DNA from: Paeniglutamicibacter sp. Y32M11
GTDB taxonomy: Bacteria > Actinomycetota > Actinomycetes > Actinomycetales > Micrococcaceae
Direction: 5' to 3'
Length of the DNA: 64,000 nucleotides
Assembly: GCF_019285735.1 (NCBI RefSeq)
Contig: NZ_CP079107.1
Location: 3,286,001 to 3,350,000, forward strand
A program made the position numbers and the translations under genes. Positions 1,587 through 27,319 of this stretch are shown here, piece after piece. The stretch's first letter is position 1. Every line of letters starts with the position of its first letter. The notes under the pieces were generated by a model. It did no database searches. It was not told where the DNA came from and saw nothing but the letters and a program-made list of their open reading frames with translations.

Positions 1587-4190
1587 TTAGCTATTGCCAC
1601 TGACCGTACTGGTGCTCACCGAGACGACAGCCCCATTTGTGGTGCGCACACCGCTGGTATTGCCTACTCCGCGATTGTCCAAGATCTTGGATCCCGAAAC
1701 CTTCATGGTGGCCGAACCGGACGCGGCAATGCCACCGGTGAAGGTGGTCGGTTTGTACCCGGCCCACCCGTTGGCACTGATTTCCGTGCTCTTGATAACC
1801 GAGTTTTTCCCGGTGGAGCCGGTGATTCCCGACTGCCCGTTGAGTCGCACCAAGGAGCCGCTGATCGTGGTGGATTGTCCATTGCTCTGCACGCCAATGC
1901 CGTGATTCCAGGCGACGGTCGAGGCATACAGCGTTGAGTGGGCACCCTTGAGCCACAGCGCACCGGTGTTGCTCGGATTGGCGTAGCCAATGATGTACAC
2001 ATTGCCAAGCTTGGACCAGGTGCCCAGGTTCACGGAACGGGTGGCCGAGGCCATGGTGTATCTGTAGGTGGTGCTGCTGGCCTTGGTCGTATAGATGGAT
2101 CGGTTCTTGTGGTCGATCCAGTAGGTTCCGGCCACCACCGCGGCCTTGCTGGTGACCCTTTTGAGTGCTGCCCCATTGGCATAAAGTATCTGGGTGCTAT
2201 TGCAGAGGTTGCCGGTGGTGCAGGCCAGCCCGGTCGGTGCCGTGGACGGAATCTTGGTGGAGTAAATCCGCTGCAGGGTTCCGGAGGCGGTGGTGCTCAC
2301 CGCGACGGTTCCGTCCAAGCGGGTGTTGGATCGCGTATTACCCACCAGGGACTGGCGGGACTTGAGCGTGAGGTTATTGGGCTTGTGAGTTCCGGCGTCC
2401 AAGCAGATCACCGCTCCCTCGACGGCAGCCGAAACCGCCGTGGCCATGTTGGCCCCAACCTTCACCGTGGTGGTGCAGAAGTTTCGCGGATTGATGGTTG
2501 TTGCCACCGGGGCGGCCACGATCGGTTTGATGCTGGTGATCCACGCCGAGAACGCACCAACGCCGGTGCTCGAGCCGCGGAAAGCGTTGCCGGTCAGGGT
2601 TTTGCTGAGGCCGGTTGAGGACTTGGCCGTCGCCGATTTAATCGTCAGATCCGCCGACTTGGTGAAGGCCACCGAGGCCACATCCTTGAGTCCAAAGACT
2701 TGGGCCAACTTCGCCTGGGTGACTTTTTGACTCCAGGTCTTGTACGGGTTGTTCGCGTTGGTCTTCAGTGACCAGGGATCACTGCGCGAGCGCAGGTACG
2801 GGAATGGAGTTGACCAGACATCTTCGCTGTTTCGGGTGGCGCCTCCGCTCGAGGAGAAGTACAGGGTATCGGCAAGTCGCCCGGCATACATGACGACCTT
2901 CCCGGTGGCCGGAACGCCGGTGGAGGTACGCGTGAGGGTGGCTTCAACTGCCGCCTTCCACTTGGCTCCGTAACCGAGCCGTTCGTTCTCTTTCACAAAT
3001 CCGGTGAACTTTTGATCCAGCGTCTCATCGGTGACGTTACAGTCACAGGAGGACTTGAGCGTATTCACCTTGCGCATCGCGTAGGTTCGTCCGGCCATGG
3101 CCTGGGCTTGGAGCACCGCCGAGGGCCAGGAAGAGGGAACCTCGGCCAGACCATAGAGATACTCATCGTTGAGCCGCAAGGAGCTCACCAGATTGACCTG
3201 ATCGCTGAGTATCCCGGCTTCCAGCACCCCATGGCGGTAGATCCCGGGTGAAGAAGATTCGGCGTTGGACTTATTAATCAGGAGGGTTGCCGCGGTGGAT
3301 GAGGGCCAGGCCCGGGTGCCTTCCCACTGGATGCGCAATTTCCCGGTGACCAGGTTAGCCTGCGGAGCAGGGTTGATGTCCCTGACCCCATCCTTGTTCA
3401 GATCGCGTGCAATGACGTCGTATCCGGCCGGGGTCTTAAACGTATAGCTCAGCGACGTGCCGCTACGGGAGAAGGACAGTGTGGAACCCGCAGCCCCCGT
3501 GTAAGTCTTTTTGGCCGTCGGATCAATCACGCGCATTTTCCCGCTGGCAACGCTCAGTGAGCTGGTCGCGGACTTGAGCAGCTGCACACGAATGTCACTG
3601 GCTGCCGAGCTGGTGCTGGCCGTGACGGTGGCCGGGTTGTAGTAGTACTACAGGATGGAGGTCGCGCTCTTGCCCTCCTCTGCCATGGAACGGGCACCGT
3701 ATTGACTCATCCCTACCCCGTGCCCCCAACCGGACCCTGCAAGGGTGAAATCCCCCGGCTTGGGCGTCGGTAGCCAGTAGCTGGTGCCGTTGCTGCGTGC
3801 ACCCAGAATGCCACCGGTGAAGGCCTGCCGGGTGTCGGCTCCGTAGCTGTACTGTTCGGCGGTCGGGTAACCGAATCTACCGTTTTCCCAGCCGGTGTCC
3901 GCCCACGCCTGGGCCAACGCGTTGCGGACCGTCACGGCCTTACGAGTATCGGAATACACCACAATTCCGTCGCGGTGCGAACGCCACAGTCGCCCGTCCT
4001 TCAGCTTCCCGGTCGTGGCATCGGCACCGCCGAGGCTTGTTGCGGCCTTGGCCAGGTATGCAGCATTGGACTCGGCAATGGTTGCGGCCGGCACCATCGT
4101 GGTGATCGAGGGAGCTGCCGCGGCCGCGGTTCCGGGAATCAGCAGGCCGGCGAACAAAGTGGCAGCAAGCATCAGGGCGGTGGGTCTCAT
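1587..4190 (-). pseudogene. Secreted SpoIID-like / LGFP / beta-helix protein interrupted by in-frame TAG
   Basis: One 867-codon frame runs through this span, but codon 181 is TAG (3648-3650). The frame stays the same on both sides, and the text is typical of SpoIID proteins: SGWGHGVGMSQYGA, then TSIL-stop-YYYNPATV, where relatives normally have Gln (CAG). One C-to-T change explains it. Layout: signal peptide 1-26, LGFP-type repeat about 60-140, SpoIID amidase-enhancer domain about 155-550 (AQAMAGRTYA, FSSSGGATRNSEDVW), and a right-handed beta-helix-like C-terminal part with repeated Ser/Thr/Asn turns. ATG 4190 is preferred over GTG/ATG at 4241 because AAGGAA precedes it and the signal peptide starts there. 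The likely role was cell-wall binding or remodelling outside the cell. Readthrough or sequencing error cannot be excluded. Confidence 0.85.
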
Positions 4191-4295
4191 CGATTTCCTT
4201 GGGGCGGCGCGACGGCGTTGTCCGGTTACACCCGGGGCCATGAAATCTGATCATACGTCAGCTGCATTAACTCGGCAGCAGTTTCGCCTCACCCG

Positions 4296-5387
4296 GTGGT
4301 GCACGATATCTTGGCAGCAGCACCTTTCACGCCATCAAACAGGAGTTTTCTCATCTCTTCTCTCATCACCGCTTCCACCCATGGCTCGCTGGGTCTGGTG
4401 ATGTTGCGCCGCCCCGAGGCCATCAATGCCCTCACCCTGGGCATGCTGGAAGACCTCACTCGGATCTTCACGGAGTTTAGCAGTGATACCAAAATCTCCA
4501 TGGTCGTTCTGCAGGGTGAAGGAGCACGCGGATTTTGTGCCGGCGGGGATATCAAGGACTTTCACGCGGCGGTCAGCAGCGGGGAACACCAACGCTTCCT
4601 AGAGTTACTGAGACTCGAATTTGCCCTTGATGAGATGATCGCCAACTATCCCAAACCGGTGGTCACCATGGTCCATGGGCTGTGTATGGGCGGCGGGATC
4701 GGTCTGGCCTCCCATGCTCCGATCCGCATCACCACCCCCGAGGCTCGTTTCGCGTTGCCCGAGGCGCGCATCGGCTACTCTCCCGATGTGGGATCCACCC
4801 TGCTGCTGGCCAGGGCCCCGGGGCACGTGGGTGAATATCTGGCCCTGACCGGGACCAGCTTCACCGGTGCCGACGCGGTAGAACTGGGCTTTGCCGACAT
4901 GATGGTGAGCCAGGATCGCTTCGAGGAAATCTTTGAGGCACTACCCGACTTCGATTCGATGCCCGCGGCGGAAATCGCCGCTGGCATCGAGGTACTTTTT
5001 GGCTTCTTTGCCGCTTCCCCGCTCGCCAGCCAACAGCCGTGGATTGATGCTGCCTTCTGCGCACCCACCGTTCCGGAGATCATTCAGCGGCTTTCGACGA
5101 TGCGCCATCCGGCCGCCGCAGAGGCGCTTGCTGCCCTTCAGGCCAACTCCCCCACCTCGCTGCACTGCGCGCTGGGCGCCGTGCGGGCAGCACGCACCGA
5201 GGATCATCTGCGCTCGGCACTGGATCGTGAACTGCGGGTGGCCGAATACTTGATGTACCGCGGGGATTTGACCGAGGGCATCCGCGCCCAGGTCATCGAC
5301 AAGGACCGCTCCCCCCGCTGGAATCCGTCCACGGTTGATCCGGCCACCGAGCGCGAGATCAACGAGCTAATAGCCGGGGAACTGTAG
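4296..5387 (+). CDS. 3-hydroxyisobutyryl-CoA hydrolase-type crotonase
   Basis: The 363-residue product belongs to the crotonase superfamily and most resembles 3-hydroxyisobutyryl-CoA hydrolases, which release 3-hydroxyisobutyrate from its CoA ester in valine breakdown. Visible marks are the N-terminal strand with RRPEAINALT, the oxyanion-hole loops GFCAGGDIKDF and GLCMGGGIGL, and FALPEARIGYSPDVG, whose Glu and Asp match the hydrolase catalytic pair. The C-terminal extension of about 150 residues (ending near DPATEREINE) is typical of the hydrolase, not of short enoyl-CoA hydratases. The start is uncertain: tandem GTG codons at 4296 have only a weak ribosome binding site, and the conserved part begins about 30 residues later. 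It stands alone, divergent from the SpoIID-like gene. Confidence 0.85.
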   Translation: MVHDILAAAPFTPSNRSFLISSLITASTHGSLGLVMLRRPEAINALTLGMLEDLTRIFTEFSSDTKISMVVLQGEGARGFCAGGDIKDFHAAVSSGEHQRFLELLRLEFALDEMIANYPKPVVTMVHGLCMGGGIGLASHAPIRITTPEARFALPEARIGYSPDVGSTLLLARAPGHVGEYLALTGTSFTGADAVELGFADMMVSQDRFEEIFEALPDFDSMPAAEIAAGIEVLFGFFAASPLASQQPWIDAAFCAPTVPEIIQRLSTMRHPAAAEALAALQANSPTSLHCALGAVRAARTEDHLRSALDRELRVAEYLMYRGDLTEGIRAQVIDKDRSPRWNPSTVDPATEREINELIAGEL

Positions 5388-6212
5388 CCCTGCCCAAGAC
5401 CTGATCCTGTCTCACCGGACCAGTAGCGAGTGCTTCCACTGGCAACGAACGGCAAGGTTTCTACGAGCAGGAATGTTCGTCATCCAGAACAGTTCCTGCA
5501 AACTACGCAATCAACTCACCATCGACGAACTAACCAAAGAATTCCACCTCATCGATCAGCCCTAAAAATTCCATAACGGAGATCAAAAATTCACCGGTGT
5601 CACGTTCCACAGGCTGATTGGGCCGTCCCTGCACAATGCACCAAAATTGAATCGTGGGTCTAGATACTTACGGTCTGGTCTCACGATTCTTTAGTTGCGG
5701 CCGCGAGCCCTCTGTCCCCTCTGACGGTCTATGCGCGGTGCAAGATTACTCGTCCGTGAACAGTCCGTGAAGTCGGGCCCACATATCGTCGGATTGTTTC
5801 CCGGGACAGATCATCACGTTGCGTATCGGCGGCGTGATGGGTTGCACTTCGACACTTGTCCACGAATTCTCAGCCATGTGCACATCAATGACCATCTGGA
5901 TAAAGTCCTCTGCTCCGTCACAGCGGTACCGCCCCTGTCAGACTGTGAGTCCTTCCCCTCAATTCAGCAATTTGTTCAAGAACACGTAATAGACCTGTTC
6001 AGGGTCACTTATGGACTGCCCGAATGCGTTTAGTCGGGTAGATTCAAAGCATTCACTTGCAGCGTTATTCTTTTGGGGACTAACGCGGCTTTTCTCTCTT
6101 ACGGTCCCAGTTGTTTGCCGGCCGTCTGGATACAGGTTCCTCCGAGCCTGCTGACAATAGCTGCATTCGCCACGGCTAAGCCGTAATTCATATTCAAGGG
6201 GACACTTTCGTA
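5388..6212. other. Gene-poor spacer of about 800 bases
   Basis: I find no convincing gene here. A frame open from about 5389 to 5565 ends in IDELTKEFHLIDQP and could be the tail of a lost gene, but it has no start and no recognisable family. A 100-codon frame at 5731-6033 lacks a ribosome binding site and has unusual composition. The sequence is visibly less GC-rich than its surroundings, and the last 150 bases presumably carry the promoter of the downstream repeat protein. Confidence 0.5.
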
Positions 6213-9200
6213 ATGATGCGCTCGCTCGTCAGAGCTATGGGACTATTACTCGCCACAATCGTCATGTTCGCCGGCAGTTTGCAGCCGGCAGCAGCGGTCA
6301 ATATGGACACGCTGCCACCAGTGATCGTCAGCAGTAGCGTGAGCCCAGAATCAGTCAATCTAGCCGAGGGCGCTACCACGATCACGCTCACACTCCACAT
6401 CGTGGATGAGTCCGGAGTTCATGCGCCCACTGTCCAGTTCGAACATTCTGAGAGCATTCAGAGCGTGGGTTTTGGCTCGATGTCTCTGGTCGCGGGTACA
6501 GCATCCGACGGCGTTTGGAAGAAGAGCGTTGACTTGCCAGCTAGTGCCGGAGCTGGCGCGTGGAGCTTCCTAATGTTTCCCTTGACCGATTTCCCCGGCA
6601 ACATGGGGCAATTCAGCCATGTGGGAACCGTTCAGGTCGCAAACGAATCGGCACCCACGGAGAAAAACCCTCCCAAGATTATTGAGGTTTCTGCAACTCC
6701 CACAAGCGCCAATCTGCATGATGAACCAGCGAAATTTAATCTCCGGTTGCGCATTACAGACGAGACTGGGGTGCATTCTCCGACAGTTCTACTGGAGCAT
6801 CCGAGTGGCCAGCAGTACGGCTTTGGGGGTATGACTCTTGTTTCGGGTGATCACCGTGACGGCATCTGGGAACACGAAGTAGTTGTGAACAAGGGATCCT
6901 TTACCGGAACTTGGACATTCGTGCTATTCCCGCTCGTCGACTACCCGGGGAACAGCACATTCTTTCAAGATGTCGCACAAGTGACCGTGACGGACGCAGC
7001 CCCGCTCACCGCAGTAACCCCGACCATCACCGGCACCACCACCGTCGGCAAAACCCTCACCGCCGTCCCGGGCACTTGGGGACCGACAGACGTGAAACTC
7101 ACCTACCAGTGGTCCGCCAACGACACCAACATCGACGGGGCCACACAAAACACCCTGGACCTCACCCCGGCCCACGCCGGGAAGACGATCACCGTGACCG
7201 TCACCGGTTCCAAGCCCGGCTACGCCACCACCTCGAAGGCCAGCACCCCAACCTCGAAGATCGCCACCGCAAACCTCAGCACCGCTGTCCCGACCATCAC
7301 CGGCACCACCACCGTCGGCAAAACCCTCACCGCCGTCCCGGGCACTTGGGGACCGACAGACGTGAAACTCACCTACCAGTGGTCCGCCAACGACACCAAC
7401 ATCGACGGGGCCACACAAAACACCCTGGACCTCACCCCGGCCCACGCCGGGAAGACGATCACCGTGACCGTCACCGGTTCCAAGCCCGGCTACGCCACCA
7501 CCTCGAAGGCCAGCACCCCAACCTCGAAGATCGCCACCGCAAACCTCAGCACCGCTGTCCCGACCATCACCGGCACCACCACCGTCGGCAAAACCCTCAC
7601 CGCCGTCCCGGGCACTTGGGGACCGACAGACGTGAAACTCACCTACCAGTGGTCCGCCAACGACACCAACATCGACGGGGCCACACAAAACACCCTGGAC
7701 CTCACCCCGGCCCACGCCGGGAAGACGATCACCGTGACCGTCACCGGTTCCAAGCCCGGCTACGCCACCACCTCGAAGGCCAGCACCCCAACCTCGAAGA
7801 TCGCCACCGCAAACCTCAGCACCGCTGTCCCGACCATCACCGGCACCACCACCGTCGGCAAAACCCTCACCGCCGTCCCGGGCACTTGGGGACCGACAGA
7901 CGTGAAACTCACCTACCAGTGGTCCGCCAACGACACCAACATCGACGGGGCCACACAAAACACCCTGGACCTCACCCCGGCCCACGCCGGGAAGACGATC
8001 ACCGTGACCGTCACCGGTTCCAAGCCCGGCTACGCCACCACCTCGAAGGCCAGCACCCCAACCTCGAAGATCGCCACCGCAAACCTCAGCACCGCTGTCC
8101 CGACCATCACCGGCACCACCACCGTCGGCAAAACCCTCACCGCCGTCCCGGGCACTTGGGGACCGACAGACGTGAAACTCACCTACCAGTGGTCCGCCAA
8201 CGACACCAACATCGACGGGGCCACACAAAACACCCTGGACCTCACCCCGGCCCACGCCGGGAAGACGATCACCGTGACCGTCACCGGTTCCAAGCCCGGC
8301 TACGCCACCACCTCGAAGGCCAGCACCCCAACCTCGAAGATCGCCACCGCAAACCTCAGCACCGCTGTCCCGACCATCACCGGCACCACCACCGTCGGCA
8401 AAACCCTCACCGCCGTCCCGGGCACTTGGGGACCGACAGACGTGAAACTCACCTACCAGTGGTCCGCCAACGACACCAACATCGACGGGGCCACACAAAA
8501 CACCCTGGACCTCACCCCGGCCCACGCCGGGAAGACGATCACCGTGACCGTCACCGGTTCCAAGCCCGGCTACGCCACCACCTCGAAGGCCAGCACCCCA
8601 ACCTCGAAGATCGCCACCGCAAACCTCAGCACCGCTGTCCCGACCATCACCGGCACCACCACCGTCGGCAAAACCCTCACCGCCGTCCCGGGCACTTGGG
8701 GACCGACAGACGTGAAACTCACCTACCAGTGGTCCGCCAACGACACCAACATCGACGGGGCCACACAAAACACCCTGGACCTCACCCCGGCCCACGCCGG
8801 GAAGACGATCACCGTGACCGTCACCGGTTCCAAGCCCGGCTACGCCACCACCTCGAAGGCCAGCACCCCAACCTCGAAGATCGCCACCGCAAACCTCAGC
8901 ACCGCTGTCCCGACCATCACCGGCACCACCACCGTCGGCAAAACCCTCACCGCCGTCCCGGGCACTTGGGGACCGACAGACGTGAAACTCACCTACCAGT
9001 GGTCCGCCAACGACACCAACATCGACGGGGCCACACAAAACACCCTGGACCTCACCCCGGCCCACGCCGGGAAGACGATCACCGTGACCGTCACCGGTTC
9101 CAAGCCCGGCTACGCCACCACCTCGAAGGCCAGCACCCCAACCTCGAAGATCGCCACCGCAAACCTCAGCACCGCTGTCCCGACCATCACCGGCACCACC

Positions 9201-10469
9201 ACCGTCGGCAAAACCCTCACCGCCGTCCCGGGCACTTGGGGACCGACAGACGTGAAACTCACCTACCAGTGGTCCGCCAACGACACCAACATCGACGGGG
9301 CCACACAAAACACCCTGGACCTCACCCCGGCCCACGCCGGGAAGACGATCACCGTGACCGTCACCGGTTCCAAGCCCGGCTACGCCACCACCTCGAAGGC
9401 CAGCACCCCGACCTCGAAGATCGCCACCGCAACGGTTCGAGTTACCCCCGCAGCGCCGACATCGGACGCCACGACCGGCAGCTACACTGTGCCCACCACC
9501 AGCGGGGTCACCTATCTCGTCAACGGGAGCACCAAGGCGGCAGGAACCTATTCCTCCGGCTACACCAAGGTGACGATCTCCGCCGTGGCGAAGGACGGAT
9601 TCACGCTCACCGGGAGCACGTCCTGGACCTTTGATCTGTCCAAGAAGTCTGCGACAGCGACCGAGCCTTCGGTCAATTACTCCGCGAAGACGATCGCCAT
9701 CCCACGTGTCGCCGGGGTCGCCTACTACATCGACGGCATCCTCAAGGCAACCGGCACACATAAGGTCACGACCGCCACGACGGTCACCGCCAAGGCTGCT
9801 GCGGCGAACTACGTGGTCGCGGCGAAGACGTGGAAGTACGACCTGCGCACGGCAGTTGCACCCGCCAAGCCGGTCTTCGACGCCCCCAAGAACACCGTCA
9901 AGATCCCGACCAAGACGGGCGTCAGTTACTACGTCAACGGGGTCAAGCAGAAAGCGGGCACCTACAAATACACCGGCACGGGAACCGTCACAACCAAGAC
10001 CTCAAGCAGCTCCTACAAGCTCACCGGGACCACGTCGTGGAAGTTCGACAACCGAAACTCCGTTACGCCCACGAAACCCACCTTCAGCGCCTCGGCCAAC
10101 ACCGTTAAGATTCCAACCAAGACGGGCGTCACCTACTACATCAACGGGGTCAAGAAGACGGCCGGAACCCGTAAGTACACCGGCACGGGAATCGTCACCA
10201 CCAAGACCGCGAACAGCTCCTACAAGCTCACCGGAACCACGTCGTGGAAGTTCGACAACCGAAACTCCGTCACACCCGCCAAGCCTGTCTTCAACGCCTC
10301 CAAGAACACCGTCAAGATCCCGGCTAAGACGGGCGTCACCTACTACATCAACGGGGTCAAGAAAAAAGCAGGCACCCACAAATACACCGGGAAAGTCACA
10401 GTCACCACGAAGGCTTCGAACAGCTCCTACAAGCTTGCCGGAACCCAGAAATGGGCAGCCCGGCTATAA
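6213..10469 (+). CDS. Giant secreted protein with nine identical Ig-like repeats
   Basis: The 1418-residue product starts with a clear Sec signal peptide (residues 1-28, ending QPAAA). It has two related N-terminal beta domains of about 110 residues (each with FGSM or FGGM and a PLxDxPGN motif). Nine copies of a 90-residue Ig-like repeat follow (about 270-1079), each with LTYQWSANDTNIDGATQ and KTITVTVTGSKPGYATT. Five smaller repeats complete it (about 1080-1418), marked by GVTYYINGVKK and KLTGTTSWKFDN. No sortase motif or transmembrane anchor is seen, so it is probably released or held by wall-binding repeats. AGGGGA lies 10 bases before the ATG. The role is likely adhesion or matrix spacing; no catalytic domain is visible. 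A hairpin follows the stop. Confidence 0.9.
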   Translation: MMRSLVRAMGLLLATIVMFAGSLQPAAAVNMDTLPPVIVSSSVSPESVNLAEGATTITLTLHIVDESGVHAPTVQFEHSESIQSVGFGSMSLVAGTASDGVWKKSVDLPASAGAGAWSFLMFPLTDFPGNMGQFSHVGTVQVANESAPTEKNPPKIIEVSATPTSANLHDEPAKFNLRLRITDETGVHSPTVLLEHPSGQQYGFGGMTLVSGDHRDGIWEHEVVVNKGSFTGTWTFVLFPLVDYPGNSTFFQDVAQVTVTDAAPLTAVTPTITGTTTVGKTLTAVPGTWGPTDVKLTYQWSANDTNIDGATQNTLDLTPAHAGKTITVTVTGSKPGYATTSKASTPTSKIATANLSTAVPTITGTTTVGKTLTAVPGTWGPTDVKLTYQWSANDTNIDGATQNTLDLTPAHAGKTITVTVTGSKPGYATTSKASTPTSKIATANLSTAVPTITGTTTVGKTLTAVPGTWGPTDVKLTYQWSANDTNIDGATQNTLDLTPAHAGKTITVTVTGSKPGYATTSKASTPTSKIATANLSTAVPTITGTTTVGKTLTAVPGTWGPTDVKLTYQWSANDTNIDGATQNTLDLTPAHAGKTITVTVTGSKPGYATTSKASTPTSKIATANLSTAVPTITGTTTVGKTLTAVPGTWGPTDVKLTYQWSANDTNIDGATQNTLDLTPAHAGKTITVTVTGSKPGYATTSKASTPTSKIATANLSTAVPTITGTTTVGKTLTAVPGTWGPTDVKLTYQWSANDTNIDGATQNTLDLTPAHAGKTITVTVTGSKPGYATTSKASTPTSKIATANLSTAVPTITGTTTVGKTLTAVPGTWGPTDVKLTYQWSANDTNIDGATQNTLDLTPAHAGKTITVTVTGSKPGYATTSKASTPTSKIATANLSTAVPTITGTTTVGKTLTAVPGTWGPTDVKLTYQWSANDTNIDGATQNTLDLTPAHAGKTITVTVTGSKPGYATTSKASTPTSKIATANLSTAVPTITGTTTVGKTLTAVPGTWGPTDVKLTYQWSANDTNIDGATQNTLDLTPAHAGKTITVTVTGSKPGYATTSKASTPTSKIATATVRVTPAAPTSDATTGSYTVPTTSGVTYLVNGSTKAAGTYSSGYTKVTISAVAKDGFTLTGSTSWTFDLSKKSATATEPSVNYSAKTIAIPRVAGVAYYIDGILKATGTHKVTTATTVTAKAAAANYVVAAKTWKYDLRTAVAPAKPVFDAPKNTVKIPTKTGVSYYVNGVKQKAGTYKYTGTGTVTTKTSSSSYKLTGTTSWKFDNRNSVTPTKPTFSASANTVKIPTKTGVTYYINGVKKTAGTRKYTGTGIVTTKTANSSYKLTGTTSWKFDNRNSVTPAKPVFNASKNTVKIPAKTGVTYYINGVKKKAGTHKYTGKVTVTTKASNSSYKLAGTQKWAARL
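7021..9432 (+). repeat. Tandem array, 9 x 270 bp
   Basis: Units begin at 7021, 7291, 7561, 7831, 8101, 8371, 8641, 8911 and 9181. They are identical base for base, including third codon positions. The only difference I see inside the array is a synonymous A-to-G near 9410 in the last unit, which then diverges after about 9432. The period is a multiple of three, so gain or loss of units keeps the reading frame. Each unit encodes one 90-residue Ig-like domain. Confidence 0.97.
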
Positions 10470-10502
10470 ACGGGAAGCCCGATCGCTAACTACTGAGTGA
10501 AA

Positions 10503-10534
10503 CCTGTGCCACCGGCTGTTGTCGGTGGCACAGG
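10503..10534 (+). terminator. Hairpin after the repeat protein
   Basis: A perfect 12-bp stem (CCTGTGCCACCG and its complement) with an 8-base loop lies 34 bases after the stop codon. No long T run follows, so it may act as a weak intrinsic terminator or as a 3' stabiliser. Confidence 0.6.
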
Positions 10535-10760
10535 CGTTTGGCCGCCAGGACCATATCTAAGCATCGCTCGATACAGTACGAGCCGGTGCAAAAGTTCAGC
10601 GCTGTGAAACCAAATGTTCGATTACCGACATGATTATTCGACTCTGAACAGTCACTGTCTATGCCCACCTGACAAATCCACACTCCCACGTGGTCGACGG
10701 GTATCGTATGCAGGAAAACCAAAAACCCATGTCTTGTCGGCCGATAGTTGACCGCGCAAA

Positions 10761-11355
10761 ATGTCAGCCGCCCCAAATCTGATCGGCCGCCGCGAGCGAA
10801 ATAAGCAGGCCAAGCTCGAGCGAATCATCGTCGTCGCCAGCGAGCTTTTTGCCGAGCAGGGAGCCGGTGAGATCACCACACAACAAATCGCCGACAAGGC
10901 AGACATTGGCACCGGAACCCTTTTCCACTACGTACGGTCGAAGGGCGAGTTACTCCTATCTAGAGCAAAACTCCAATTATGCCCACGCACGGGCCGAGGG
11001 CAGCAACGCCGCTTCGCCCAGCAACGATACTCTAGAGGCGATCATGGCGATCCTCGTTCCGGTGGTGGAATGCAATCGCACCCAAGTCGACAATGGCCGG
11101 CCCTACCTGAAAGAAATGGTTTTTGGCGACCATGAGGAACGCCACCACCTCGGTCTGGCCCTTTCGTCCCAGTCCGAGGTGGCCATTTACATCGTCTTGC
11201 AGTCAGATCAGCGCTTTGGATCCGAGAACGCGGTCACGCTCGCACACTTCATCTCCGCAATCATGTTCCTGACACTGGCAGCCAGCGCCAATGCCACCAA
11301 GACCGTTGCTGAGCTCACGCAGGAGATCCAAACCCAGATCAACGTCCTGTTGTAG
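10761..11355 (+). pseudogene. TetR-family regulator with a one-base frameshift
   Basis: The N-terminal 65 codons encode a standard TetR DNA-binding domain (ASELFAEQGAGEITTQQIADKA, with recognition helix near TGTLFHYVRSKGELL). The frame then runs into nonsense, while the +1 frame continues with a plausible ligand-binding domain (VVECNRTQVDNGRPYLKEMVF). Removing one T near 10959 (CTATCTA to CTACTA) restores GELLLLEQNSNYAHA and a single protein of about 197 residues. TetR proteins are repressors of exporters and of lipid or amino acid genes; no obvious target is adjacent except the convergent MFS gene. It may be a genuine pseudogene or a sequencing indel. Confidence 0.8.
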
Positions 11356-11452
11356 CGGCAACACCGCCGTCACTTGGTGAGGATGAAGAGGTTGACGGCA
11401 GTCATGGCGGCACCCACGATGCTGCATCTAGTCGAGGGGAACCGAAGCTCCC

Positions 11453-12685
11453 TTAGTTCTTCAGCGAACGCAGCGGCACCACGGAGGCTAGGGTCACCAC
11501 GCCCATGGCAGTACCAAGGGCAGCAAATGCTCCGCCGGCACCCAAGGTGCTGGCAAAGATGCCAATGCCCACGGGAATCACCGACTGTCCTAACCGGTTG
11601 CCCAGCAATCGAATCGACATCCACGTGCCGCGGGTGCCCTCCGGGGCGATCAGCGTCACCACGCTCATGCTCAATGGTTGTCCAATGCCCAGCGCCAGGC
11701 CGGCCAATACCAACGCCACGGCCATCGCGATCACCGGCAGCGGCACCACCAGCAGCGCCACCAGAACCGCGGCCGCACCAGTGGAGACAAGCATGAGGGT
11801 GCCCCGGCCAAATCTGCGGACCAGGTGATCCAACCCCAGCCGGGAGAGCACCGTGGCACCGGCTCGTGCCGCCAGCAATAGCCCGACGGTTTGGGTGGAG
11901 ATGCCGCGTTCCACGGCCAACGCCGGAAGATAAACCTGCAAGAGGTCAACGGTGCATAACACCATCATGCTCAGCGTGATCGAGGCGATCAGCGGACGGC
12001 GGGCCGAACGTTCAACGTTCAGTGCGGTGCGCAGCTTCACTTGTTTTTTGAGCTCACCGCGTGGCACACCGATCGGGTGCCTGGCCATAAAGATGCTGGC
12101 CGCCAGCACCCCGAAGGCTCCCACCAGGTAGGCGCGCATCAGCAGTGAGGTATCCGGGGCTACCGCGCTCCCGCCCAGTACACCCAGCAACAACGGGGCC
12201 ACGGCCTGGGCCAGGGCCGTCACGGTCGTGTACAGCCCGAAGACTCGATCCATGTTCCGGTTACGGGCCGAGGCCAGCCGACTTTGCTCACCGATCAGGC
12301 TCATCAGGTGTCCCACACCCAAGAGCAGATTCCAGCCCAGCAGCGCCGGCAGGGTGGGCGAAGCAAAAAGTAATCCGGCACCGGGGATGATCAGCAGCGC
12401 TGAACCCACCAACAGGATGCTCTTCTCCCGGCCGCGATCCGCGGCCCGGCCAATCATGACGGCAAGGAACACCGGCAGGATGGAAAAGCTCGCCACCACC
12501 AGGCCCAGCAGCCCCGGATCTACCCCCAGCTCCAGCGCCTTGTAGGAGGTTGCTGGCCGCACCAAAAAGATCGACCCCTGCAATAAAAAGCCGTGGGCAA
12601 GCACGGACGGGAAACCGATGCCGGCGACGGGGTTTTTGGGGGCCATAAATGCCATTATCCCAAGCCGGGCGGCATCCCGGCGCAT
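11453..12685 (-). CDS. MFS transporter, probable exporter
   Basis: The 410-residue product has about 12 hydrophobic segments and the MFS loop signature (MIGRAADRGREKS after helix 2, and DHLVRRFGRGT in the second half). It is an integral membrane, proton-driven transporter. The substrate cannot be read from sequence. It begins nine bases after the stop of the FMN-binding glutamate-synthase-like gene, so the two are probably co-transcribed. The start could be any of three in-frame ATGs (12685, 12655, 12646); the first hydrophobic helix begins after all of them. It converges on the broken TetR gene, which might once have controlled it. Confidence 0.85.
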   Translation of the reverse strand: MRRDAARLGIMAFMAPKNPVAGIGFPSVLAHGFLLQGSIFLVRPATSYKALELGVDPGLLGLVVASFSILPVFLAVMIGRAADRGREKSILLVGSALLIIPGAGLLFASPTLPALLGWNLLLGVGHLMSLIGEQSRLASARNRNMDRVFGLYTTVTALAQAVAPLLLGVLGGSAVAPDTSLLMRAYLVGAFGVLAASIFMARHPIGVPRGELKKQVKLRTALNVERSARRPLIASITLSMMVLCTVDLLQVYLPALAVERGISTQTVGLLLAARAGATVLSRLGLDHLVRRFGRGTLMLVSTGAAAVLVALLVVPLPVIAMAVALVLAGLALGIGQPLSMSVVTLIAPEGTRGTWMSIRLLGNRLGQSVIPVGIGIFASTLGAGGAFAALGTAMGVVTLASVVPLRSLKN

Positions 12686-12694
12686 CGGCGGGAG

Positions 12695-14458
12695 CTACAC
12701 GTCCTGTTGTGGCGCAAGTTTGCCCTCCGGCCGCGCAGCCGCGGGGTGTACCGGGGCGACCGTATGGTGGGTCGAATCCTTGGGTTCCACCCGTGCCGGG
12801 CTCACGGTTCCGGTGACCACCGGGGCCGGTTCACGCTCGGTGGGTTCACGCGGGGTGGGCCAGGGCAATGGCGCGTGTTCGCCGAAGGTGTCGGCGTCAG
12901 CCTCCGCCCAGTCCGGGGCCCAACCGCGCGGCGGATCGGCCAGCAATTCGCCGGGCGCCAACCAGTGGTGCAGACCCGCGTAGCTGCGAGTGGTCAGCTG
13001 ATCAACGCGGCGGCGCAACATCCTGGTGTTCAGCTGGGCCGGATCACTCACGCCCATCGAGGCCATCAGCTGGGCGGCTTCCTGCACCGTGAGCTTGTGA
13101 TAGTTGTAGACCCGGTTGCCCTTGTCCACCACGTCCAGCGCGCGGAAGAGCCGTGGATCTTGGGTGGCAACACCCACCGGGCATTCGTTGGTGTGGCATT
13201 TCTGCGCCTGAATACAGCCGGTGGCCATCATCATGGCCCTGGCGCTGAAGGTGAAGTCGGCCCCCTGAATCAGCCGTTTGACCACGTCCGAGCCGGTGGC
13301 AACCTTACCCGCGGCGCCGAGTCGGATTTTGGCGCGCAGCCCGCAACCCACCAGCGCGTTGTGCACCAGCATCAGGCCCTCGGTCAGCGGGGTACCCACG
13401 TGGTCCTCGTACTCCAGAGGGGCGGCTCCGGTGCCGCCCTCGGATCCATCGATGGTGATGAAGTCGGGGGTGATCCCGGTGTCCAGCATGGCCTTGCACA
13501 TGGCCAGAACATCGGTACGTGAACCAACACAGAATTTATACCCCACCGGTTTGCCGCCGGAGAGTTTGCGCAGTCTGGCCACAAACTCCATCAGCTCGAT
13601 CGGCGTGGAGAAGGCCGAATGCGAGGCGGGGGAAATGCAGTCAATGCCCATCGGCACCCCACGCGTCTCGGCAATTTCTTGGGTGATTTTCGCCGCCGGT
13701 AAGACCCCGCCCAGTCCGGGCTTGGCGCCCTGGGAGAGTTTGATGGTGATCCCCTTAACGTGCTCGTTGGCGGCCTTGACGGCAAAGATTTGCGGGTCGA
13801 ATCTACCGGCCTCATCGCGGCAGCCAAAGTATCCCGAGCCGATCTCCCAGAAGAGGTCCGCCCCGTGTTCCAGGTGGTAGGACGCCAGCCCGCCCTCACC
13901 GGTTTCGTGGACAAAACCACCCATGGCGGCGCCCTTGTTCATGGCGAGTACCGCATTTTTGGACAGCGCCCCGAAGCTCATCGAGGAGATGTTCATCAGC
14001 GAGATCTCATATGGCTGGGTGCAGTCCGGGCCGCCGATGCGAACCCGGTGCTGCTGGGCGCTGACCTCTACCGGAACGGTGGAGTGCAGGAGGTATTCGT
14101 AGCCGACCTCGTTCACGTCACGTTCGGTGCCAAAGGCCTTGTGGCTATCGGCGCCCTTGGCGCGTGCATAAACCAGTGAGCGGGTGTCCCGGTCAAAGGG
14201 GCGGCCATCGGTATTGCGTTCGATGAAGTATTGCTGGATCTCCGGGCGAATGGATTCAAAGAGGAAGCGCATCCGCCCCAGGACCGGGTAGTTGCGCAGG
14301 ATGGCGTGTTTTTTCTGGATGACGTCGTGGATGCCCAGCCCCAGCAGGCCCACCATCAGCACGGCGATCACCCACCAGCCACCGGGCCCCAGGGAGGCGG
14401 CGATGATCGTGATGAAGCCGAGCAGGGACAACAACGCAAGAATCAGAAATCTCACCAT
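12695..14458 (-). CDS. FMN-binding glutamate synthase-family protein, membrane-tethered
   Basis: The 587-residue product carries the synthase domain of glutamate synthase: ISSMSFGALSKNAVLAMNKG, GITIKLSQGAKPG, DFITIDGSEGGTGAAP and the FMN-phosphate region. Three cysteines spaced C-x5-C-x4-C (CIQAQKCHTNEC) match the 3Fe-4S ligand motif of GltB. The amidotransferase and GXGXG domains of full-length GltB are absent. Two N-terminal hydrophobic helices (residues 1-45) should tether it to the membrane. Proteins of this stand-alone class have been linked to amino acid or methylamine nitrogen handling, but most have no proven reaction. It lies upstream of the MFS gene and downstream of the flavin amine oxidase on the same strand, 61 bases apart. 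Confidence 0.88.
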   Translation of the reverse strand: MVRFLILALLSLLGFITIIAASLGPGGWWVIAVLMVGLLGLGIHDVIQKKHAILRNYPVLGRMRFLFESIRPEIQQYFIERNTDGRPFDRDTRSLVYARAKGADSHKAFGTERDVNEVGYEYLLHSTVPVEVSAQQHRVRIGGPDCTQPYEISLMNISSMSFGALSKNAVLAMNKGAAMGGFVHETGEGGLASYHLEHGADLFWEIGSGYFGCRDEAGRFDPQIFAVKAANEHVKGITIKLSQGAKPGLGGVLPAAKITQEIAETRGVPMGIDCISPASHSAFSTPIELMEFVARLRKLSGGKPVGYKFCVGSRTDVLAMCKAMLDTGITPDFITIDGSEGGTGAAPLEYEDHVGTPLTEGLMLVHNALVGCGLRAKIRLGAAGKVATGSDVVKRLIQGADFTFSARAMMMATGCIQAQKCHTNECPVGVATQDPRLFRALDVVDKGNRVYNYHKLTVQEAAQLMASMGVSDPAQLNTRMLRRRVDQLTTRSYAGLHHWLAPGELLADPPRGWAPDWAEADADTFGEHAPLPWPTPREPTEREPAPVVTGTVSPARVEPKDSTHHTVAPVHPAAARPEGKLAPQQDV

Positions 14459-14519
14459 GGTTTGAGCCTAGCGCCAACTCCGAGCGCGGCGGCGCAGGCG
14501 CCGCGCTCGGCCGGCAGAA

Positions 14520-16226
14520 CTAGTTCCGCACACTCACGTTTTCATCAAGCTTCAGCGGACCGAGTTCGGCGAGGAATTGCCCGGGGCCCGGGTTCTGCGC
14601 GGCGTCTTCGCCGCCGAGGTGGCGCAGCACGCCCCAGACCGCGTTCAGTGCCGTGGTCACTGCGCCCTCGGCCCAGCCCGCGGTCCAGGACACGTCGTCA
14701 CCGGTCAGGAAGATGCCGCGGTGTTCGGCCGGGGCCTCACGCTGGTCAAAGTGCGTGTAGAGGCGTTCCTGGTAACGGTAGTGGCCGGGCAGGTTGGCCT
14801 TAAAGGCCCCCATGAAGTGCGGCTCGGCCTCCCAGGACACGGTGATCGGCTGACCGACGATATGGCTGCGAATATCCACCTGGGGGTAAATCTTCGCCAG
14901 CGAATGCAGCATCAGCTCCATGCGGCGTTCGGCCGAGAGGGCGAGCCACTTCAGGGCGTCATCATTCCAGGTGTAGGAGAGCAGGATGACGGCCGGGGCG
15001 TCATCGCCATTATCCAGCAGATAGGTGGCGCGGTTCAGTCGATCCGTCAGGGTCATGGAGAGCAGGAACTCACCGGTGACCGGGTCCCGGTCCTTCCAGA
15101 AGGGGCGGTCCACCATCACAAAGGTTTTGGATGACTGCATGTAGTGCGAGCGCTCGATCGCCGTCCAGAGTTCGGCGGGGAACAAATCTTCCTCGGTGTC
15201 GATCCCGGTGGAGAGCAACCAAGACTGCACGGAGGACACCACGGCCGGGTAGGTGTGGGTGCGGCCGAACTGTTCGGTGATCTCGATGGCCGTGGAGCCA
15301 TTAAATCCTGGCTCGTCCGAGCGGCGAATCGTGGCCACCGCCCCGCGGGGTGCACCGGCATGCAGCGAGGCCAGGGTGGTACCGGCCGGCCAGTGGGCCA
15401 GGTCCTGCGGTGCGTGGTTCCACAACCCGTGGGGCAGCTTCGCCGCTCCCCCGGTGATGCCGCGGTGATTATCATCCGCGTCGGTGTAGACCACCCGCAG
15501 GATTTCCAGGATGGAGTTGGAGAAGTCGGTGTCCCAGCCACCGGAGCCGAAGCCGACCTGGCCGAAGGCCTCGCGGTGCTCAAAGCCGGCCTCCTTGAAG
15601 GCCGCGGAGTTGGCGATAAAGCCGTAGAAGCTCTCCTCATCAAATTCTTCGAGCAGCGAGTTCCAGATCCGCTTGACCTCGAGCGCGTCACGCGACTTGA
15701 TGGCCCGCTGCATTTCATCAAAGGATGCGTCCTCGCGCAGCGCCCGCTTCCAGGCATCGGCGACCTCGTGGAAGAAGGCCGGCAGGTCTCCCTCCTTTTC
15801 CACGTAGACCTTTTTGCCCTTGAGCTCGATGACCGTGGAGTCGGTCGGTGCGGCCAGCGGGTTGGGGAAGTCGAAGGTTTCCAGACCCAACAAATCGATG
15901 TAGTGGTACAGCGCCTTGCTGGAGACCGGGAAGCGCATGCCCCCGAGATCACAGGTGATCTCCGGTGCGGAGGCGAAGCTGGCGGTGCGCAGCCGTCCAC
16001 CAATCTGATCGGCCTCGTAGATGACCGGCTTGAGGCCCAACTTCATCAACTCGTACGCCGTGACCAATCCGGAGAGTCCGGCGCCGATGATGGCAACTTC
16101 CGTGCCGTAGAGTTCCGGCGGAACACTGCCCAGACCGGCCGGATGAGCCAGGAAAAGATCGTAGTTAAAGGGGAAGTCGGGGTTCAGCATGTTGATCGTG
16201 CCATCACTCTGCGGCAAATTGTTCAT
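14520..16226 (-). CDS. Flavin monoamine oxidase, tryptophan/phenylalanine 2-monooxygenase-like
   Basis: The 568-residue product has the FAD-binding Rossmann motif VAIIGAGLSGLVTAYELM near residue 45, followed by YEADQIGGRLRT. A C-terminal FAD-contacting segment reads LTGDDVSWTAGWAEGAVTTALNAVW. The N-terminal lead (PFNYDLFLAH) and total length fit the tryptophan 2-monooxygenase / phenylalanine oxidase branch of amine oxidases better than short putrescine oxidases. Enzymes of that branch decarboxylate and oxidise an aromatic amino acid to the arylacetamide. The APC permease upstream and a nitrilase-family amidase across the PucR regulator fit such a route. Exact substrate is inference; a plain L-amino acid oxidase is the alternative. 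Confidence 0.82.
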   Translation of the reverse strand: MNNLPQSDGTINMLNPDFPFNYDLFLAHPAGLGSVPPELYGTEVAIIGAGLSGLVTAYELMKLGLKPVIYEADQIGGRLRTASFASAPEITCDLGGMRFPVSSKALYHYIDLLGLETFDFPNPLAAPTDSTVIELKGKKVYVEKEGDLPAFFHEVADAWKRALREDASFDEMQRAIKSRDALEVKRIWNSLLEEFDEESFYGFIANSAAFKEAGFEHREAFGQVGFGSGGWDTDFSNSILEILRVVYTDADDNHRGITGGAAKLPHGLWNHAPQDLAHWPAGTTLASLHAGAPRGAVATIRRSDEPGFNGSTAIEITEQFGRTHTYPAVVSSVQSWLLSTGIDTEEDLFPAELWTAIERSHYMQSSKTFVMVDRPFWKDRDPVTGEFLLSMTLTDRLNRATYLLDNGDDAPAVILLSYTWNDDALKWLALSAERRMELMLHSLAKIYPQVDIRSHIVGQPITVSWEAEPHFMGAFKANLPGHYRYQERLYTHFDQREAPAEHRGIFLTGDDVSWTAGWAEGAVTTALNAVWGVLRHLGGEDAAQNPGPGQFLAELGPLKLDENVSVRN

Positions 16227-20718: not shown

Positions 20719-20888
20719 GACTCTAGTTCCTTTTTGTAATCCAGATCACAACGAACCATGGGCTCGCTCGCAATCCGGGCCAGCTCCTCCCGTTCCACCG
20801 CGCATGAACACGTGGCGTGCTTTTCTGCGCCAAAAAACAGGTCATCTTCCCATTGCACCATCCAACGCTTCGCCCCCAAGGAGTCCAG

Positions 20889-23297
20889 TTGAATGCACAT
20901 TTAGCAGCCAAACGGCACACGCTTTTGCATGCGATCATCACAGTTTTGCTCGGCCTATTCCTCGTTGCCTTCCTGGCGTTCTACACCATGTTCTCCTCAC
21001 AGGTGGCAACCGGCGCCTCGGATCTCAACGACGGAATGGGAAAGGCCAACGACGGCGTCATCAAGCTCGCGGACGGCTCCAATGCCGCGTCCTCCGGCGC
21101 CACCGAACTGGCCGACGGCACCTCGGCACTCTCGGCCGGGGCACAAAAGCTGCTTGACGGTACGGATAAGGCCGCCAGCGGCGCTACCCGGCTTTCCGAG
21201 GGCGCCACCGAGCTAAACGCTGGAACGTCCAAGCTCTTGCTCGGTGCAGTTGATGCTTCGGCCGGTGCCACCAAGCTCGGCGACGGCGCTGGAACCCTGG
21301 CCACGGGCGTGGACAAGCTTGTCGACGGAACGCAGAAGGTTGATGCGGCAGCGGACAAGCTGAACTCCGGGGCTTCCAAGTTGGCCACCGGAGCAGGCAG
21401 CGCCAATACGGGTGCACAATCATTGAGTGCAGGTTCCACTAAATTGGCCGATGGCACCTCATCGCTGCTGACCGGAACCGGCGCACTGGATGATGGAGCA
21501 CAGGCGCTCAAATCCGGTTCTCACGGGCTCTCCGACGGACTCTCCGCCCTGGGCCTAGGCACCTCAAAGGTTGATGCCGGCGCCCAAGAACTCTCCACCG
21601 GTGCACAGCAGCTCTCCGCTGGAGCAGGTGCCGCCAACGACGGCGCACAGAAGATCGCCGCCGGCACACAGGCCGCAAACGCCGGTGCACAGAAACTCGC
21701 CACCGGCACCAGCAGTGCGGCAGCAGGCTCCGACGCGCTGGCTAACGGCAGCGACAAGTTGCTCGGCGGCGTCGAAGAACTCGCCGCCAAGGCTCCCGCC
21801 CTGATTGAGGGTGTCGGCGCATTGAAGGACGGCTCGGATCAGTTGGCCACCGGCAGCACCAAGCTGGCCGCCGGTACCAAGGCCCTGGCGGGCGCTGCTC
21901 CCGCGTTACGTGAGGGTATTGTCGCCGCTCAGGAAGGCTCGGTAGCGGTGGAAACCGGCGCCAAGAATCTTGATGGTGGGCTGCAGACCGCTGCCACCAA
22001 GGCGGGCGAACTGGCTGCTGGTTCAACTCGTCTTGCCGATGGGATGGATCAGCTGGCAACCTTCATCAAGGAGAACCCGGCAGTTCCGGTGGGCCTCTTG
22101 CAGGACAAGATCGAGAAGCTGAATGCAGGAGCCACAGAGCTCAACGCCGGCATGATCAAATTGGATGCTGGCACCACGACCCTCTCCGCCGGAGCCACCA
22201 AGCTTGCCACCGGATCCAGCAAGCTGGTTGACGGCATGACTCAGCTCAAGACCGGGACCAAGGATCTCAAAGATCAGACCACAGCGTTGAACGCGGGTGC
22301 TCAGACCATCAAGTCCGGTGCCAACTCGCTCGATGGTGGGCTCGGCAAACTCAGCGAAGGCTCCAAAGCCCTGGGCGTGGGTATCGGTTCACTCAAGGAC
22401 GGCGCCACCACCCTGAACGCCGGTGCCCAGAGTCTGAATTCCGGACTCACGCAGCTTGATGCGGGCTTCAACGATGAGAAGGCCGGCCTGCTGGTGGGAC
22501 TAGATTCGCTGGGCAATGGCGCCTCGGCGCTGGCCGAGGGCACCGACGCCCTGGCCACCGGATCAACCAAGCTCAGCACCGGTGCAGGTTCCCTCGCACA
22601 GGGAACCACGGCACTGAGCGAGGGCACGGGCAAGCTCAACACCGGCGCGCAGAAACTGGCGGCCGGCGGAACCAAGCTCGCCGACGGCACCTCTGCCTTG
22701 GAAACCGGTGCCACCGCCCTTGATCAGGGTGCCGCGAAGTTGGCCGACGGAAGCAAGAAGCTGGCCACCGGAACGCAGAAATTGCAGGATGGCAGCTCGA
22801 CCTTGGCCGCCGGCACCTCCACGCTGGCCACCAAAACTCCCGCGCTGGCTCAGGGTGCCGAATCGGCAGCTGCCGGTGCCTACAAGATCAAGGATGGCGC
22901 GCAAAGTCTCGCCGCGGGCAATGGCAAGATCGCCCGTGGCGCGCAGGATCTGGATGCCGGAGCGGCCAAGCTCGCCGGAGGAACCGAATCTCTGGACCTT
23001 GGCCTCGAATCATTGCGCAAGGGCACCTCGACCCTCTCCATCGGTGCCACCGCCCTTGATGAGGGTGCAACCAAGTTGGCCGACGGCAATTCGCAGCTCG
23101 CCACCGGGCTGAGCTCGCTCAACGAGGGATCCACCCAATTGGCCAGCGGCACCTCACGCCTGGAAGCCAGCACTCAGGCCGTGGCAGCTTCCAGCATCGG
23201 TAGCAGCCCCAGCGCCCTGTTGCTGTTGATTCCGCTGCTGTTGCTTTTGATCCCGGCGGTCATCATGATCCGCAATCGCCGGCACCTGCGCGGCTAA
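20889..23297 (+). CDS. Membrane protein built of Leu/Gly heptad repeats (YhgE/Pip-like stalk)
   Basis: The 802-residue product has a transmembrane helix near residues 12-38 (HAIITVLLGLFLVAFLAFY) and one at the C-terminus (ALLLLIPLLLLLIPAVIMI), followed by RNRRHLRG. Between them are over 700 residues of seven-residue repeats of the form x-x-x-Leu-x-x-Gly (LADGTSALSAGAQKLLDGT and so on). Such heptads occur in YhgE/Pip-type proteins of phage-infection, type VII and ABC-2 contexts; the ABC-2 membrane domain of YhgE is missing. TTG 20889 is preferred over GTG 20817 because AAGGAG ends five bases before it. It is monocistronic, flanked by palindromic operators and a strong terminator. An extracellular rod crossing the wall is a reasonable model; function is unknown. 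Confidence 0.85.
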   Translation: MNAHLAAKRHTLLHAIITVLLGLFLVAFLAFYTMFSSQVATGASDLNDGMGKANDGVIKLADGSNAASSGATELADGTSALSAGAQKLLDGTDKAASGATRLSEGATELNAGTSKLLLGAVDASAGATKLGDGAGTLATGVDKLVDGTQKVDAAADKLNSGASKLATGAGSANTGAQSLSAGSTKLADGTSSLLTGTGALDDGAQALKSGSHGLSDGLSALGLGTSKVDAGAQELSTGAQQLSAGAGAANDGAQKIAAGTQAANAGAQKLATGTSSAAAGSDALANGSDKLLGGVEELAAKAPALIEGVGALKDGSDQLATGSTKLAAGTKALAGAAPALREGIVAAQEGSVAVETGAKNLDGGLQTAATKAGELAAGSTRLADGMDQLATFIKENPAVPVGLLQDKIEKLNAGATELNAGMIKLDAGTTTLSAGATKLATGSSKLVDGMTQLKTGTKDLKDQTTALNAGAQTIKSGANSLDGGLGKLSEGSKALGVGIGSLKDGATTLNAGAQSLNSGLTQLDAGFNDEKAGLLVGLDSLGNGASALAEGTDALATGSTKLSTGAGSLAQGTTALSEGTGKLNTGAQKLAAGGTKLADGTSALETGATALDQGAAKLADGSKKLATGTQKLQDGSSTLAAGTSTLATKTPALAQGAESAAAGAYKIKDGAQSLAAGNGKIARGAQDLDAGAAKLAGGTESLDLGLESLRKGTSTLSIGATALDEGATKLADGNSQLATGLSSLNEGSTQLASGTSRLEASTQAVAASSIGSSPSALLLLIPLLLLLIPAVIMIRNRRHLRG

Positions 23298-26977: not shown

Positions 26978-27005
26978 ACCTCTTACCTCTTACCTCTTAC
27001 CTTTT
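26978..27005 (-). repeat. Heptamer tandem repeat over the ribosome binding site
   Basis: On the plus strand ACCTCTT occurs three times in a row and is followed by ACCTTTT. Read on the coding strand of the adjacent gene it gives repeated AAGAGGT, so several Shine-Dalgarno-like units stand in line before the TTG start. The unit length is not a multiple of three and the array could expand or contract by slippage. Confidence 0.8.
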
Positions 27006-27319
27006 AGCGGGTGCATTTTAAGGACTGTATGGGAGTTGTTAACTTCTCAGGAGCGTGCGGATACCCGATCAGGTTTACATCAACTACGCTATGCCATTGG
27101 CGTCGTGAACATTATTCTTAGCAAAATCCGCGACAAGCCTATGGGGGTTTGATAAATATCGCCCCGGAGAAGGTGCACCTCATCATCCACCGGGAAGCGA
27201 CGGGGCCGCCACCGTCAACTGTGCCCACCGACACGACACTCATGCCTATTAATACAACCGCGACCACGCAGGCTTCTCTGCTGACCCGAATGTTTCGCTC
27301 ATTTCGTCCCGCCCCTCCG
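27006..27319. other. Spacer without a recognised gene
   Basis: No frame here has a good start or a recognisable product, and no tRNA-like fold was seen. It should include the promoter of the leftward hypothetical gene and the 3' region of the PucR-type gene. Confidence 0.45.

Follow-up and report, generated by a model that had tools for sequence, protein, structure and literature searches.

A nearly base-identical array of Ig-like domain repeats in a probable surface stalk protein of Paeniglutamicibacter sp. Y32M11

What keeps consecutive repeats of a bacterial gene identical base for base, and what might the encoded protein gain from them? The question is raised by a 64,000-nucleotide stretch of the Paeniglutamicibacter sp. 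Y32M11 genome (contig NZ_CP079107.1, positions 3,286,001 to 3,350,000; hereafter the window, numbered from its first base), in which a 1418-amino acid (aa) open reading frame (ORF) of the forward strand (6213-10469) contains an array of nine 270-bp units. Paeniglutamicibacter is an environmental-type genus. We favour, with a probability of roughly 0.68, the explanation that this gene encodes an exported stalk working like a Periscope Protein and kept uniform by recombination between its units. Judged from the sequence, homogenisation in this stalk-like, apparently exported protein is real and either very recent or continuing, and the array gene looks like one encoding a probable cell-surface protein whose stalk could lengthen or shorten by recombination.

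Tandem Repeats Finder (TRF) delimited the array at 7019-9432 on the forward strand (period 270, 8.9 copies, 99% match, score 4821), which amounts to 8.94 units of 270 bp. The original prediction, made from the letters of the window, had placed the start at 7021, two bases too late; its count of nine, its period, the preservation of the reading frame by that period and its single silent change near 9410 were all recovered by TRF and by comparison of the sequence with itself at a lag of 270. This comparison matches without a break over 7019-9139 (2121 bp; array span 7019-9409), meets its sole mismatch at 9140 versus 9410 and then matches again through 9432. The units starting at 7020, 7290 and so on to 8910 (8 of 8) show 0 differences in 270 bp, while the ninth (9180-9432) contains one silent A>G change at 9410, in the third position of a proline codon, diverges from the unit sequence past 253 bp and is 17 bp short. 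Each unit encodes one Ig-like domain of 90 aa that is close to neutral, with a net charge of +2. The closest unit from any other gene, among the 214 units collected, reaches only 64% DNA identity, which excludes chance and indicates that the copies derive from one another, no other gene being seen as a source. Very long ORFs in other frames also run across the array (6924-9761, reverse strand; 6911-9634, forward strand), because the units are identical and their length is a multiple of three.

How old is this uniformity? Each unit offers 73 synonymous sites, and none of the 584 sites across the eight identical units has changed, so that the 97.5% upper bound on synonymous divergence is 0.0063 per site (0.0085 for one change in nine units), the copies being treated as a star. 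In two flanking genes, 19 of 197 (9.6%) and 31 of 276 (11.2%) fourfold sites differ from genome G014, the closest relative among the genomes compared. Silent divergence in the array is thus far below that of its flanks, and the last homogenisation must be much younger than the split from G014. Selection at the protein level cannot explain silent identity, since synonymous sites are free of it. Very recent amplification or continuing homogenisation, as first proposed, is therefore supported.

The array was also compared with other genes containing at least two such units, the resulting set of 52 ORFs being drawn from the window, 36 loci of named genomes, L082-L085 chosen by place and 15 of the loci from the unit search. 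None of the other 51 ORFs is as uniform as the window array (mean within-gene identity 0.992, against a median of 0.57), which is followed by L082, a paralogue in the same genome (0.930), L084 of genome G001, a gene sharing the N-terminal domain class (0.897), and L015 of Sporosarcina (0.876). Any pair of units at least 95% identical was found in 3 of the 52 ORFs, a rarity that may be overstated because short-read assemblies in the set can hide perfect arrays. In 45 of the 52, the mean similarity among an ORF's own units exceeds their similarity to units of other ORFs; in the remaining 7 it does not. The partly homogenised array of L015 precedes a CAP domain (Pfam) and belongs to Sporosarcina beigongshangi, a Firmicute and not an actinobacterium.

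Such perfection could in principle be created by the assembly itself, either as a wrong number of units or as differing units collapsed or over-polished. Short reads, had the assembly been made from them, could not count identical 270-bp units (see also PMC8201768); moreover, the adjacent TetR-like gene is frame-broken and the upstream SpoIID-like gene contains an in-frame stop. Nevertheless, a collapse would give one or two units and not nine separate copies in a genome assembled as a single contig of 4,173,408 bases, the silent difference of unit 9 was retained, and the alignable coding flanks contain no frameshifting indel relative to the closest relative: over 1888-5462 and 11454-15159, the indels versus G014 are limited to one of 15 bp at 12834 and two of a single base each in the intergenic sequence beyond 5387. 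We thus regard an artefact as very improbable. The worry about collapse voiced in the original prediction is accordingly weak, although the true number could differ from nine by one or a few units.

The protein built around the array is modular. An AGGGGA resembling a ribosome-binding site lies immediately 5' of the ORF start at 6213 (by eye), and the product begins with a signal peptide-like N-terminus, MMRSLVRAMGLLLATIVMFAGSLQPAAAV (6213-6296), likely cleaved after ...PAAA; this reading, likewise by eye, agrees with the earlier description of the protein as secreted. Two DUF7743-like domains follow (6297-7004; Pfam DUF7743, 28.5 bits versus a cut-off of 27), with a mutual identity of 44% over 110 residues, and residues 29-268 are acidic (isoelectric point 4.7, charge -15). 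After the nine Ig-like units come five C-terminal beta modules of 69 aa (9438-10466) with net charges of +3, +5, +9, +10 and +13, a strongly basic stretch (+39 overall) and a candidate wall-retention tail. The Ig-like assignment, first a guess, holds: a structure model of 175 aa (nearly two units) was obtained with a predicted local distance difference test score (pLDDT) of 97.7 and a predicted template modelling score (pTM) of 0.82, and this beta sandwich matches solved Ig domains. The matches include Ig domains of phage Hoc and plant SCAB1 (3shs, 4dix, 8y47), a likeness of fold only that implies no common function. In a Pfam scan, the unit stays below the cut-off of every Ig-type family. The profile of the ZirU family (NCBIfam NF040485) scores 84.9 bits, short of its curated cut-off of 100. 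Of the 10 matching stretches with E values up to 1, the best lies on the Ig-like units, and a distant likeness of the units to this family is possible. DUF4183 (PF13799), at 24.8 bits, lies narrowly below its curated cut-off of 25.1 in the window protein, and it matches 1 of 30 single 69-aa modules (E 0.00045).

From these parts a mechanism can be proposed. The basic 69-aa tail would adhere to the anionic cell wall and the nine Ig-like beads would form a rod of about 35 nm, each Ig domain measuring about 4 nm, with the N-terminal DUF7743-like pair displayed at its tip; a stalk is likely, in keeping with the surface-protein reading of the original prediction. The 270-bp units would recombine by unequal crossing-over or slippage between copies, which would keep them identical and could insert or delete complete domains without loss of frame, thereby altering the reach of the protein. 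The edge unit would retain its silent difference because it has fewer recombination partners.

Does the array reflect such a recurring process or a single accident? One recent burst that copied a unit eight or nine times, with no continuing turnover and no functionally valuable change of length, would account just as well for eight identical units and a silent mutation that arose afterwards. It is also in line with the related gene of G001, a genome of the same genus, in which two DUF7743-like domains are followed by only three Ig-like units, 89-92% alike (its N-terminal part is 32% identical to that of the window protein). The best evidence on this point comes from related genes, found by searching 395 genomes of the family for the C-terminal modules, 38 of which gave a match. 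Three of the proteins appear, by their architecture, to be surface proteins: L121 (genome G131), with three DUF7743, four 69-aa modules and three SLH-type (S-layer homology) repeats; L122 (G050, on one contig of 3.86 Mb), with two 69-aa modules, three DUF7743, four modules and three SLH-type repeats; and L123 (G138), with two 69-aa modules, two DUF7743, four modules, one Ig-like unit and three SLH-type repeats. L123 thus unites every class of domain seen in the window protein and adds SLH, a domain which Pfam confirmed in L095, the same gene as L121. The latter (G131:C2, 977 aa, reverse strand) contains three distinct domain arrays, each almost or fully base-identical internally. Genomes G131 and G050 belong to the same genus, and the layouts of L121 and L122 differ.

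Within these two genes, the copies of each domain are far more alike than between them. Mean DNA identity of DUF7743 is 0.977 within L121 and 0.978 within L122 versus 0.754 between the two; that of the 69-aa module is 1.000 and 0.982 versus 0.721; and that of the SLH-type repeat is 0.965 and 0.951 versus 0.866. L123 is less uniform, its neighbouring units sharing 0.55-0.89 DNA identity. In some of these genes, whole domain arrays have thus been repeatedly overwritten by neighbouring units, and this homogenisation in L121 and L122 is the best evidence that the window array reflects a recurring process and not a single accident. The Ig-like domain itself is homogenised in L082 (two units 100% identical) and in L015 as well. 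Consequently, we consider the single burst unlikely and retain recombination between units as the preferred explanation.

How the protein would be held at the cell surface is a separate problem. No sortase anchor was found (LP.T[GA] occurs nowhere in the protein, and its end is not hydrophobic, the last 40 residues having a mean hydropathy of -0.68), no SLH repeat (PF00395) appeared when the full-length protein was scanned against Pfam with an E limit of 1, and the Pfam scan gave no CWB2 match. We compared the charge of the 69-aa modules with what follows them, in a family sample of 31 rows and an order sample of 30 rows (the latter with best-match loci only), with one row per protein. The last module is basic (+8 to +13) in all five proteins that end in it (the window protein, L086, L088, L092 and L093), and lies between -14 and +2 in all 19 that run on into an SLH-type or sortase-like tail (one-sided p = 0.0004, 5 versus 19, descent ignored). 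These 19 consist of 13 SLH-type proteins (motif RDAMAAF; Pfam confirmed two) and 6 sortase-like ones (two by motif word, four by eye). In each of the five module-ending proteins, the final part of the module chain carries more positive charge than the first, without a stepwise rise. L086 and L087 (genomes G013 and G012) contain a 1909-aa ORF with, by eye, a heme-peroxidase-like part and RTX-like repeats, which closes with seven 69-aa modules that become increasingly basic; in L086, a second similar ORF adjoins it.

The Ig-like units give a related picture after the fact. Split post hoc by anchor, the units of anchored proteins have charges of -8 to +3 (n=5) versus a median of +11 and a range of -6 to +23 for terminal ones (n=43; one-sided p = 0.0003, 43 versus 5, descent ignored). 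The anchored set consists of L031 (cut by a contig end), L038 and L041 with CWB2, L042 with SLH (Pfam) and L013 with a sortase-like end seen by eye. At +2, the stalk units of the window resemble the anchored class, and in the paralogue L082 the charge of the terminal Ig-like units is +14 to +17. The basic tail may thus stand in for a classical anchor and hold the protein to the wall. A broader version of this idea, possible yet doubtful, is that charge-graded tails of beta modules constitute in actinomycetes a non-covalent wall-anchor class of their own, replacing LPXTG, SLH or CWB2; the Ig-like units (+2) would then have been released from anchoring, now the task of the 69-aa modules, and so could be homogenised into a stalk of adjustable length.

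Several points weigh against the stalk held at the wall. The protein lacks a recognised wall anchor, binding to the wall being suggested by charge and by relatives. DUF7743 is no known adhesive domain. No change of length was seen, each species being represented by one genome. The five proteins with terminal 69-aa modules came from a search whose query was itself basic and may represent a single clade, and 28 further rows whose tail is cut or whose anchor cannot be named also have a non-basic last module, so that basic charge is tied to the end position and not strictly to the lack of a nameable anchor. Finally, the planned test on the charge of Ig-like units, terminal (43) versus internal (17), was negative (two-sided p = 0.25).

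The protein could instead be released or bound to the extracellular matrix, its basic modules binding acidic polysaccharide or extracellular DNA and its repeats providing only bulk or multivalency. The missing LPXTG-like motif, hydrophobic end and SLH or CWB2 match would suit this role, and some of the proteins with basic Ig-like units at their end resemble, by eye, secreted enzymes (subtilase-like L085, GH16-like L083); repeat-variable proteins without wall-attachment motifs do exist, according to one report (PMC9704523). We find it rather unlikely, in that SLH-type repeats terminate the relatives with which the protein shares its N-terminal and 69-aa classes of domain, and 69-aa modules are not basic where an SLH-type or sortase-like tail follows them.

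The preferred exported stalk can be compared with described systems. Periscope Proteins such as SasG, Rib, Sgo_0707 and CdrA (Whelan et al. 2021, PMC8201768) are described as having repeats of more than 50 residues that are at least 80% identical, number variation being most extreme at the highest repeat identity, and Ig-like beta sandwiches are their commonest fold. The window units, with 90 aa and eight of nine base-identical, fall within these limits of length and identity. The protein resembles the class in its long tandem repeats of a folded domain (mean DNA identity 0.992), its N-terminal non-repeat domains, its probable stalk and its predicted export, and differs by lacking a sortase anchor and by coming from an actinobacterium outside the type-culture set of that study. 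This likeness, drawn from one genome, does not settle membership, since the class also calls for repeat-number variation between strains and the protein has no recognised anchor. Fibrillar adhesins (PMC8286594) offer a second parallel with their N-terminal tip, middle stalk and C-terminal anchor, for which the window protein has candidates; unlike them, it has no recognised adhesive domain or anchor. In that survey, 1,785 proteins (nearly half) had no known anchor and novel ones were suggested, a group on which basic modules at the end of the chain, where a known anchor is missing, may bear. L121, L122 and L123 share the N-terminal domain class and the 69-aa module with the window protein, and the arrays of the first two are likewise homogenised; unlike it, all three have 69-aa modules of neutral to acidic charge and close with three SLH-type repeats, and the Ig-like unit, present nine times in the window protein, occurs once in L123 and is missing from L121 and L122.

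Searches by title and abstract start on Periscope or surface tandem repeats, Paeniglutamicibacter genomes, surface and SLH repeats of Arthrobacter, intragenic recombination in actinobacteria and charge-type wall binding returned no paper describing the window protein; in the literature searched, DUF7743 was not mentioned, and nothing was found on the concerted evolution of surface proteins in bacteria. Surface proteins of the Periscope type, known from long-read type-culture genomes (PMC8201768), would extend to an actinobacterium of an environmental-type genus. To the known class, the analysis adds the concerted evolution of several domain types in related genes, a changing slot cargo and a testable idea of anchoring. 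With one gene, one slot, identical units and a countable length, the locus is a clean test system.

The slot in question, about 6 kb (5463-11453), lies between two convergent genes, a 3-hydroxyisobutyryl-CoA hydrolase gene (4296-5387, forward) and an MFS transporter gene (11453-12685, reverse), and is absent or different in the other genomes of the genus; the array gene is its main cargo. It is followed by a TetR-like regulator (10761-11355, forward) that is frame-broken, the N-terminal domain being read in one frame and the rest of the protein in another. Among 15 genomes of the genus, including that of the window, the gap between hydrolase and MFS genes is closed to 8-540 bp in 12 (540 bp in G007) and measures 35.9 kb in G002, 8.33 kb in G014 and 6.07 kb in the window genome. 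G014 is about 95% identical to the window up to 5462 and again from 11454, and the two slot cargoes have no blastn match to each other at E up to 1. The G014 cargo (L117:3574-11810) comprises a GT2-family glycosyltransferase, a GGDEF-EAL protein, a TPR protein and a CBM5/12 protein that also matches GH18 weakly, and searches with the N-terminal part, the unit and the C-terminal part gave no match at the G014 slot. The slot thus carries different cargo in two close species, both cargoes being probably surface- or matrix-related. No tRNA or Rfam feature marks it.

Other features of the window were recorded in passing. Upstream of the slot, a SpoIID/LytB-like gene (1587-4241, reverse) is split by an in-frame stop near 3648, and G014 has a single long ORF (L117:3-2363) across this stretch. 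Further downstream, an 826-aa protein (20817-23297, forward) contains many X-X-X-Leu-X-X-Gly heptad repeats (TIGR03057, 255 bits). Directly upstream of a reverse-strand ORF starting at 26971, the 7-mer ACCTCTT is repeated four times (26978-27006), which could be a slippage-prone site.

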